DNA of 64,000 nt, taken from contig NZ_FORF01000006.1 of assembly GCF_900113935.1 (NCBI RefSeq), positions 124,001-188,000 of the forward strand. Direction: 5' to 3'. The notes under the pieces were generated by a model. It searched no databases and was not told the DNA's origin. It saw only the letters and a list, made by a program, of their open reading frames with translations. Positions 15,837 to 39,885 of the stretch are shown here, piece by piece; position 1 is the first letter of the stretch; the number at the start of each line of letters is the position of its first letter. This DNA is from Aquamicrobium aerolatum DSM 21857. GTDB lineage: Bacteria > Pseudomonadota > Alphaproteobacteria > Rhizobiales > Rhizobiaceae. A program made the position numbers and the translations under genes.

Positions 15837-16065
15837 GGCTTCTTCAATTCCTGCAAAGCGAGATGGATTGTTTATCGGTTGGCATCTTTCATTACCGACC
15901 CTGAACCATATATAAGTGCCAGACACCGGCTGGAACAAGCATGCGCGAGTTCGTGCCGTCGCAATACCGACCAGTTTCGGAAACCCGGCACTTCGGGGGA
16001 TCCGTGCAAGGCGGTGACCGTTCAACTCGCCCCTTCATAGAAAGGGGCTACGGGAGACCCTTTTC

Positions 16066-37909: not shown

Positions 37910-38054
37910 CGGCTTCTCCCTCACACTGCCATCACACCATGTTGCGGTGCACAAAAAAACAGAATTACGCCCTAATTCCGGCTAGATAGACGGATTCCGT
38001 CACAATTCGGCCGCAACCATTTGCAGCCATTAATATTGCATTGCACAAAACGCA

Positions 38055-38084
38055 TTGCTGCCATGCACCATCGTCACTTCTAAT
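38055..38084 (+). promoter_or_regulatory. Candidate promoter of the DUF1127-sRNA locus
   Basis: TTGCTG (38055-38060) and TCTAAT (38079-38084), spaced by 18 bases, lie 63 bases before the DUF1127 start. GCAA/TTGC words, including the dyad GCAACCATTTGC at 38023-38034, lie just upstream and could be an activator site. The -35 match is weak. Confidence 0.3.
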
Positions 38085-38147
38085 CCGATGCAACCGCGAC
38101 TATCTTCCAATCATCGCAAGAACAAAGAAACAGTCTAGGTGAACGAT

Positions 38148-38288
38148 ATGAACATCATCCGCAACTACCGCAACTGGCGCCGCTACCGTGATACCGTCAA
38201 CGAGCTGAGCCGCCTGTCCAACCGCGAACTGAACGATCTGGGCATCACCCGTGGTGACATCCCGTTCGTTGCACGCAAGTCGGTCTAA
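38148..38288 (+). CDS. DUF1127 small protein (CcaF-like)
   Basis: This is a 46-residue, Arg-rich protein with the DUF1127 pattern: [20 protein letters not shown], then [20 protein letters not shown]. The ATG has AGGTGA six bases upstream. In Rhodobacter sphaeroides a DUF1127 protein (CcaF1) is encoded immediately upstream of the CcsR sRNAs and affects their maturation; in Brucella and Agrobacterium similar small proteins affect RNA turnover, stress and phosphate or sugar metabolism. The three anti-SD hairpins directly downstream here support the same pairing. RNA binding is an inference from the basic composition. Confidence 0.92.
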
Positions 38289-38299
38289 CGAATTCAGAG

Positions 38300-38418
38300 T
38301 TTTCGTCGGGGCTTTCCTCCTCCCATGCCCTGATGAATATGGCCCGAGACTTCCTCCTCCCAGTCGAGGGCCACTTAAACGACACCCGCCGGACCTCCTC
38401 CCCCGGCGGGTGTTGTTA
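38300..38418 (+). ncRNA. Cuckoo/CcsR-like sRNA array with three CCTCCTCCC hairpins
   Basis: Three stem-loops follow the DUF1127 stop. Hairpin 1 (38304-38335) has a 9-bp stem, hairpin 2 (38341-38372) an interrupted stem of 5+3 bp, and hairpin 3 (38382-38413) an 11-bp GC-rich stem that also resembles a terminator. Each loop holds CCTCCTCCC (38316-38324, 38353-38361, 38394-38402), an anti-Shine-Dalgarno sequence able to pair with ribosome sites or to be sponged. The layout matches the CcsR RNAs and the cuckoo RNA family of alphaproteobacteria. They are likely cut from the DUF1127 mRNA. Confidence 0.88.
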
Positions 38419-38481: not shown

Positions 38482-39885
38482 ATGACAATCAAGCCTGTTC
38501 ACGTCGTCGGCGGCGGTCTTGCCGGTTCCGAAGCCTCTTGGCAACTCGCGCAAGCCGGTGTTCCGGTCATTCTGCATGAGATGCGACCGGTGCGCGGCAC
38601 TGAAGCCCATAAGACCGAAGGGCTGGCAGAACTGGTCTGCTCCAACTCCTTCCGATCAGATGACGCAGAAACCAACGCTGTCGGCGTATTGCATGCCGAA
38701 ATGCGCCTGGCCAATTCGATCATCATGGCGTCCGGCGATGCGAATCAGGTTCCCGCGGGCGGCGCACTGGCCGTTGACCGCGACGGCTTCTCTGATGACG
38801 TTACGGCCAAGCTCGAAGCCCATCCGCTGATCACCATCGTGCGCGAAGAAGTTTCAGGCCTGCCGCCTGCGGAGTGGGATCAGACGATCATTTCGACCGG
38901 CCCACTGACTGCACCGTCGCTGGCCGAAGCGATTTCCGCAGAAACGGGTGCTGACGCCCTCGCCTTCTTCGACGCGATTGCTCCGATCATCCATTTCGAC
39001 AGCATCGACATGAATGTCGCCTGGTTCCAGTCGCGCTACGACAAGGTTGGACCTGGTGGGAGCGGCAAGGACTACATCAACTGCCCGATGGACAAGGAGC
39101 AGTATGAGGCATTCATCGCCGCCCTTAACGAAGGCGCCAAGGCCGAGTTCAAGGAATGGGAAGGTACGCCCTATTTCGATGGTTGCCTGCCAATCGAGGT
39201 GATGGCGGAGCGAGGGTCAGAAACCTTGCGCCATGGGCCGATGAAGCCAATGGGCCTGACGAACGCACATAATCCGACCGTCAAGGCCTATGCAGTCGTG
39301 CAGCTGCGCCAGGACAATGCCCTCGGCACGCTCTACAATATGGTCGGCTTCCAGACGAAGCTGAAACACGGTGAGCAGGTTCGCATTTTTCGCACGATCC
39401 CTGGGCTTGAGAACGCCGAATTCGCCCGTTTGGGTGGCCTGCACCGGAACACTTACATCAATTCGCCTACTCTGCTGGACGGTTCGCTGCAGTTGAAGTC
39501 GCGTCCGGGCCTGCGATTCGCCGGCCAGATCACCGGATGCGAAGGCTATGTCGAGTCGGCCGCTATCGGCCTTCTTGCAGGGCGTTTCGCCGCGGCTGAA
39601 CGCTTGGGGCGCCCGGTTGAGTTGCCACCACTCACGACAGCGTTTGGGGCTTTGCTCAACCACATCACCGGCGGCCATATCGTCTCCGACGACGAGCCGG
39701 GCAAGCGCTCATTCCAGCCAATGAACGTGAACTTCGGGCTCTTCCCGCCTCTGGAGCCGGGCACCGCATTGAAGCCTGAGGGTTTCGAAGGCCGATTCCG
39801 GGGTAAAGACAAGGCCATCGCCAAGAAGCGCGCGCTCGCAGCACGTGCATTGGCCGACTGCCAGTCGTGGCTTCAGGATCTCTAG
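38482..39885 (+). CDS. trmFO: tRNA (uracil-54-C5)-methyltransferase, folate/FAD-dependent
   Basis: This 467-residue flavoprotein makes ribothymidine-54 in tRNA using methylene-tetrahydrofolate. The FAD-binding N-terminus reads [19 protein letters not shown], followed by [19 protein letters not shown] and [20 protein letters not shown]. The C-terminal signature is [23 protein letters not shown]. The start is ATG 38482; a longer in-frame extension would run back through the sRNA region and has no protein character. It may receive read-through from the DUF1127 promoter. Confidence 0.95.

Follow-up and report, generated by a model that had tools for sequence, protein, structure and literature searches.

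A DUF1127 gene followed by an ar14 small RNA upstream of trmFO in Aquamicrobium aerolatum, with a predicted LsrB/VtlR site before the pair

The locus described here lies in a 64-kb window (64,000 nucleotides, the whole stretch of DNA analyzed) of the Aquamicrobium aerolatum DSM 21857 genome and consists of a short DUF1127 gene, an ar14 small RNA (sRNA), and trmFO, preceded by a predicted binding site for a LysR-type regulator (Table 1). The sequence-only reading of this DNA had recognized a 46-residue DUF1127 protein followed by three stem-loops, and both parts were borne out: in a protein family search the product matches PF06568 at 66.6 bits (cut-off, 23.3; E = 1.6e-18), and RNA folding yields three hairpins. 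The gene is one of two DUF1127 genes in the genome, and its product is 89 to 91% identical to the proteins of same-genus relatives. The description of the gene as fused to a hairpin array was correct as to adjacency but not as to fusion, given that 8 nt separate the stop codon from the start of the ar14 match. The nearest relatives of TrmFO come from a Hyphomicrobiales metagenome-assembled genome (MAG), Mesorhizobium, Aminobacter, and Phyllobacterium.

Table 1. Coordinates of the features of the locus and of one further RNA element, as positions in the window
Feature	Coordinates	Strand	Basis
THF-II riboswitch	16018-16056	+	RF02977, 60.8 bits
Predicted LsrB/VtlR (LysR-type) binding site	38042-38067	+	Published motifs, same-genus conservation
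Putative promoter: -35 CTTCTA (38077-38082), -10 CTATCT (38100-38105), 17-nt spacer	38077-38105	+	By eye
DUF1127 protein gene, small, arginine-rich, 46 aa	38148-38288	+	PF06568 match
ar14 (alpha-r14/NfeR1, cuckoo group) sRNA, three hairpins	38297-38418	+	RF02344
Hairpin 1, anti-Shine-Dalgarno loop CCTCCTCCC at 38316-38324	38302-38337	+	RNA folding
Hairpin 2, anti-Shine-Dalgarno loop at 38353-38361	38340-38373	+	RNA folding
Hairpin 3, anti-Shine-Dalgarno loop at 38394-38402; terminator-like, short T-rich tail after	38378-38417	+	RNA folding
trmFO, tRNA U54 methyltransferase, conserved downstream neighbor	38482-39885	+	NCBIfam TrmFO

The Rfam covariance search that had been proposed for the hairpins gave a clear match: RF02344 (ar14) aligns to this 122-nt region with 96 bits (cut-off, 58.8; E = 2.4e-16) over model positions 1 to 123 of 123. 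Because this full-length, high-scoring match spans all three hairpins, they most likely form one sRNA; the earlier view of three units in tandem, that is, three sRNAs in a row, was discarded, as a single match covers all of them. The claim that each stem-loop carries the same loop motif was confirmed by exact matching and by folding. The 9-mer CCTCCTCCC occurs at 38316, 38353, and 38394 and nowhere else on either strand of the window, and with 0.37 copies expected in shuffled versions of the window against three observed, chance occurrence is ruled out. The ar14 region folds at -65.4 kcal/mol (z = -5.6 relative to 200 shuffles) with all three motifs in hairpin loops, and the motifs are still open in loops when the whole presumed transcript is folded. 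Hairpin 3 had also been read as a terminator; its 15-bp stem and short T-rich tail resemble a terminator, although it was not picked up by a strict terminator scan.

These features place the RNA in a known family. The ar14 RNAs, represented by NfeR1 (Smr14C2) in Sinorhizobium meliloti, possess three hairpins whose stems vary greatly but which all present the same CCUCCUCCC in unpaired form (PMC10746234, PMC7143759). The RNA analyzed here shares this organization, exceeds the curated cut-off along the entire sequence and structure model, is present in multiple copies in the genome, and has an LsrB-type motif upstream of the presumed transcript. It differs from NfeR1, which has its own promoter, in its location immediately past a DUF1127 stop codon and in the absence of the ntrB target site. 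It is also a member of the cuckoo group, which is characterized by two to four hairpins with a conserved loop motif and no sequence conservation in the helices (PMC4504443). The combination of a DUF1127 gene and a CcsR-like sRNA is known as the CIN1 locus and is frequent in alphaproteobacteria (PMC10253847); the locus in A. aerolatum, where a short DUF1127 gene adjoins a CcsR-like sRNA on the same strand and the pair is conserved in relatives, belongs to this type. The ccaF1-CcsR1-4 locus of Rhodobacter sphaeroides has the same layout but carries a cluster of four separate CcsR RNAs, whereas here one ar14 unit spans the three hairpins; the protein is 71 aa long there and 46 aa here, the promoter is of the RpoHI/RpoHII type there and accompanied by an LsrB/VtlR-type site here, and adjacency to trmFO is a further difference. 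The proposal that the locus works like CcsR or cuckoo RNAs is supported but needs revision on three points: the RNA is ar14/NfeR1 and not CcsR1-4, it is a single RNA, and its regulation probably depends on LsrB/VtlR.

All five same-genus loci with a best match to the 38297-38418 site retain the order DUF1127-ar14-trmFO, which also occurs across Mesorhizobium, Aminobacter, Brucella, and others. Among 80 named loci collected via trmFO, ∼24 contain a DUF1127 gene followed by ar14, mostly with 20 to 33 nt between the stop codon and the first motif. At these loci, one to four ar14 units stand in a row, and relatives include true tandem arrays of two to four units. In the search of relatives as a whole, ar14 was found over the cut-off in 24 of 40 genomes. 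Thus, the locus is a real, well-conserved, and already described arrangement, a member of ar14/CIN1.

In relatives, 52 ar14 units that precede trmFO were compared (a locus with four motifs, L052, was left out), revealing 42, 38, and 36 stem variants for hairpins 1, 2, and 3, respectively. An enclosing helix is predicted in all but one case and the loop motif is unpaired in nearly all; as the units were picked by their loop motif, the invariance of the loops is partly by construction, but the pairing of the changing stems is not. Judged from these sequences, the stems change by compensation and the loops stay exposed. The pattern that the sequence-only reading had named as contrary to its interpretation, unconserved loop motifs together with decaying stems, was not observed: the loops are exposed, and the changing stems still pair. 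These observations bear on the possibility that the hairpins do no more than end the DUF1127 mRNA as its 3' UTR and terminator, shielding that mRNA and insulating trmFO, and have no action in trans. The terminator-like last hairpin and the position directly upstream of trmFO would fit such a role, but a terminator requires neither three loops nor a constant anti-Shine-Dalgarno motif, the stems vary freely while the motif is kept, and ar14 relatives silence in trans via this motif (PMC10746234), so that we regard a pure terminator function as very improbable.

Several weaker or isolated elements were also encountered. A weak ar14-like element in the A. aerolatum genome (L004:1501-1613; G000:C17:102807-102919), which at 48 bits is below the cut-off, lies directly 3' of a phasin-looking gene and shows TCTCCTCCC in two of its loops, whereas its middle hairpin lacks the motif; it is possibly another 3'-UTR-derived anti-Shine-Dalgarno RNA. 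A genome from a different family of the order has, directly upstream of trmFO, an alternating series of four DUF1127 genes and three weak ar14-like elements, the latter all below the Rfam cut-off (L030:888-2603), as if protein and RNA had been duplicated together. A 1.1-Mb genome of the same family (L028, G013) contains a single ar14 copy that passes the cut-off, at 61.7 bits, and a 2.0-Mb genome of the same family (G012) contains none over the cut-off.

LsrB and VtlR are names of the same regulator in different genera. The predicted site upstream of the DUF1127 gene consists of two overlapping, exact motifs: TGCA-N6-GCAT (38042-38055), which the nfeR1 promoter carries as its LsrB motif (PMC10746234), and GCAT-N3-TG-N3-T (38052-38064), known from Brucella and Agrobacterium as the VtlR box (PMC7486931). 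In aligned same-genus loci, the entire site stands out as a conserved block, TGCACAAAACGCATTGCTGCCATGCA, and its 16-nt core has a single exact copy in the genome. The loose TGCA-N6-GCAT pattern alone is not significant, with 3 matches in the window versus 4 expected; the weight of the match derives from its position and conservation and not from the pattern as such. Of the putative promoter elements that follow, the -10 block is conserved in the same-genus alignment and the -35 element is weak; a generic sigma-70 scan found no promoter. Transcription would start at ∼38112, which would put the LsrB motif at about -70 to -57, compared to -72 to -57 for nfeR1 of S. meliloti (PMC10746234). The published box is therefore found at the promoter distance expected for the LsrB/VtlR regulon, insofar as that distance is counted from the inferred start.

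Boxes of this kind are common before DUF1127 genes. A VtlR box is present within 300 nt of 51 of the 101 DUF1127 genes near trmFO in relatives, compared to 2.7% of random 300-nt stretches, and nearly all boxes lie at -98 to -143; in eight of the 51 cases, the gene is the second of a pair and shares its box with the first, leaving ∼43, and the relatedness of the loci further reduces the number of independent cases. A candidate regulator is encoded in the same genome, namely, a LysR gene located between trxB and an AbcR (ar15) sRNA (L128:455-1612; G000:C6, up to 90723), which we take to be LsrB-like on the basis of its neighborhood and general background rather than a dedicated model. The match to the adjoining AbcR sRNA is preceded, at a distance of 61 nt, by a VtlR box. 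In known systems, LsrB activates NfeR1 (PMC10746234), and Brucella VtlR activates three DUF1127 genes along with AbcR2 (PMC12595884). The A. aerolatum locus agrees with the VtlR/LsrB regulon of Brucella and Agrobacterium, which comprises AbcR sRNAs and DUF1127 proteins, in the box before a short DUF1127 gene and in the adjacency of the LsrB-like gene to an AbcR sRNA; it differs in that the DUF1127 transcript appears to carry ar14 as well.

Because ar14 starts only 8 nt after the stop codon, it probably arises by processing of the 3' UTR of the DUF1127 mRNA. The spacing and the lack of a box between the two genes point to cotranscription of DUF1127 and ar14 followed by processing, presumably by RNase E. 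Homologues are reported to have a sigma-70 promoter preceded by a conserved LsrB motif, a feature that the RNA family does not require of its members. Here, the LsrB motif is present and conserved, but upstream of DUF1127, with no promoter directly before ar14; none of the DUF1127-first loci has an LsrB box between the two genes, the box being upstream of DUF1127 instead, and neither the sigma-70 scan nor the box search detected a separate promoter in that interval. Conversely, ar14 could be an independent sRNA gene, transcribed from a separate promoter that lies within the DUF1127 coding sequence and merely neighboring the protein gene. In S. meliloti, NfeR1 does have both a sigma-70 promoter and an LsrB site to itself (PMC10746234), and in Rhizobium, Sinorhizobium, and their relatives, ar14, often in two copies, lies ∼350 to 650 nt upstream of DUF1127 genes, some copies with their own box. 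In the A. aerolatum genome, ar14 exceeds the cut-off at three sites and is weak at a fourth; the two other copies over the cut-off, on contigs C9 and C11, are free-standing and have box-like sites 73 to 74 nt before the first loop motif, and several free-standing copies have a box ∼80 nt before it. Set against the tight spacing and the missing box and promoter at DUF1127-first loci, such independence is unlikely for the copy studied here.

From the observed protein and RNA families, the RNA structure, the conservation, the regulator site, and the LsrB-like gene, we infer that the locus is, quite likely, a CIN1-type operon in which LsrB/VtlR drives a single transcript, the sRNA comes from the 3' UTR, and its loops silence ribosome binding sites. 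LsrB/VtlR would bind the predicted site as an activator, and the transcript would run from ∼38112 to ∼38418, with the DUF1127 coding region first and ar14 at the end. The sRNA would then be cut out by a ribonuclease, probably RNase E, possibly aided by the DUF1127 protein. CcsR RNAs are cut from the ccaF1 3' UTR with the involvement of RNase E (PMC8625941); whether DUF1127 proteins act on RNA or on other proteins is disputed, with CcaF1 acting on RNA and the Agrobacterium and Salmonella members acting through proteins (PMC12501420). Finally, each of the three exposed loops would reduce translation by pairing with G-rich ribosome binding sites, mostly those of mRNAs for transport and metabolism, as NfeR1 silences mRNAs by direct pairing of its loop motif at ribosome binding sites (PMC10746234).

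The search for candidate targets of such silencing identified five genome sites with GGGAGGAGG 2 to 10 nt before an ATG, compared to one for the control. Three of the five open a long reading frame, one of which encodes an ABC transporter ATPase (L134) with a start site that reads GGGAGGAGGAGCATG and a predicted ar14 pairing of -23.9 kcal/mol. Such perfect sites are few, which counts against the operon with silencing loops. The start region of ntrB (L138:2469, reverse strand of the locus) has no recognizable Shine-Dalgarno sequence, unlike the NfeR1 target in S. meliloti. ntrB, the best validated NfeR1 target, shows no anti-Shine-Dalgarno complementarity here (predicted pairing, -3 to -4 kcal/mol) and is unsupported as a conserved ar14 target, so that the S. 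meliloti ntrB circuit is probably not conserved in A. aerolatum. For pairing of the loops with the ribosome binding site of DUF1127 itself or of trmFO, the prediction was only about -3 to -4 kcal/mol, and self-regulation by this route was likewise rejected. The loops might instead serve as a sponge or decoy for Shine-Dalgarno-like sequences in other RNAs or for a protein, a role compatible with the three identical motifs and with the ability of the DUF1127 protein CcaF1 to bind RNA (PMC10253847); nothing at this locus points to a partner RNA or protein, however, and direct pairing with mRNAs is how the closest studied relative silences them (PMC10746234), making this the least probable of the interpretations considered.

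The RNA family, the loop motif, and the link to DUF1127 are already known, and the locus itself is accordingly ordinary. The new part may be the LsrB/VtlR site as the switch before DUF1127-ar14: a box tied to the joint transcript was not found in the literature searched, most subscription journals being outside it. More broadly, we lean toward the view that LsrB/VtlR directly drives the joint transcript across Phyllobacteriaceae-type Rhizobiales and that, from lineage to lineage, the sRNA has changed between two forms, a free-standing gene equipped with an LsrB site and the processed 3' UTR of a DUF1127 gene. If true, the joint transcript would merge two classes of targets that the literature searched describes separately, the DUF1127 proteins and NfeR1/ar14. 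With a single ar14 unit and what appears to be one LsrB/VtlR-controlled promoter for both protein and sRNA, the locus offers a clean case for testing the disputed notion that DUF1127 proteins mature or assist the sRNA of the same transcript and for studying how sRNA genes shift from a promoter of their own to a 3' UTR or the reverse.
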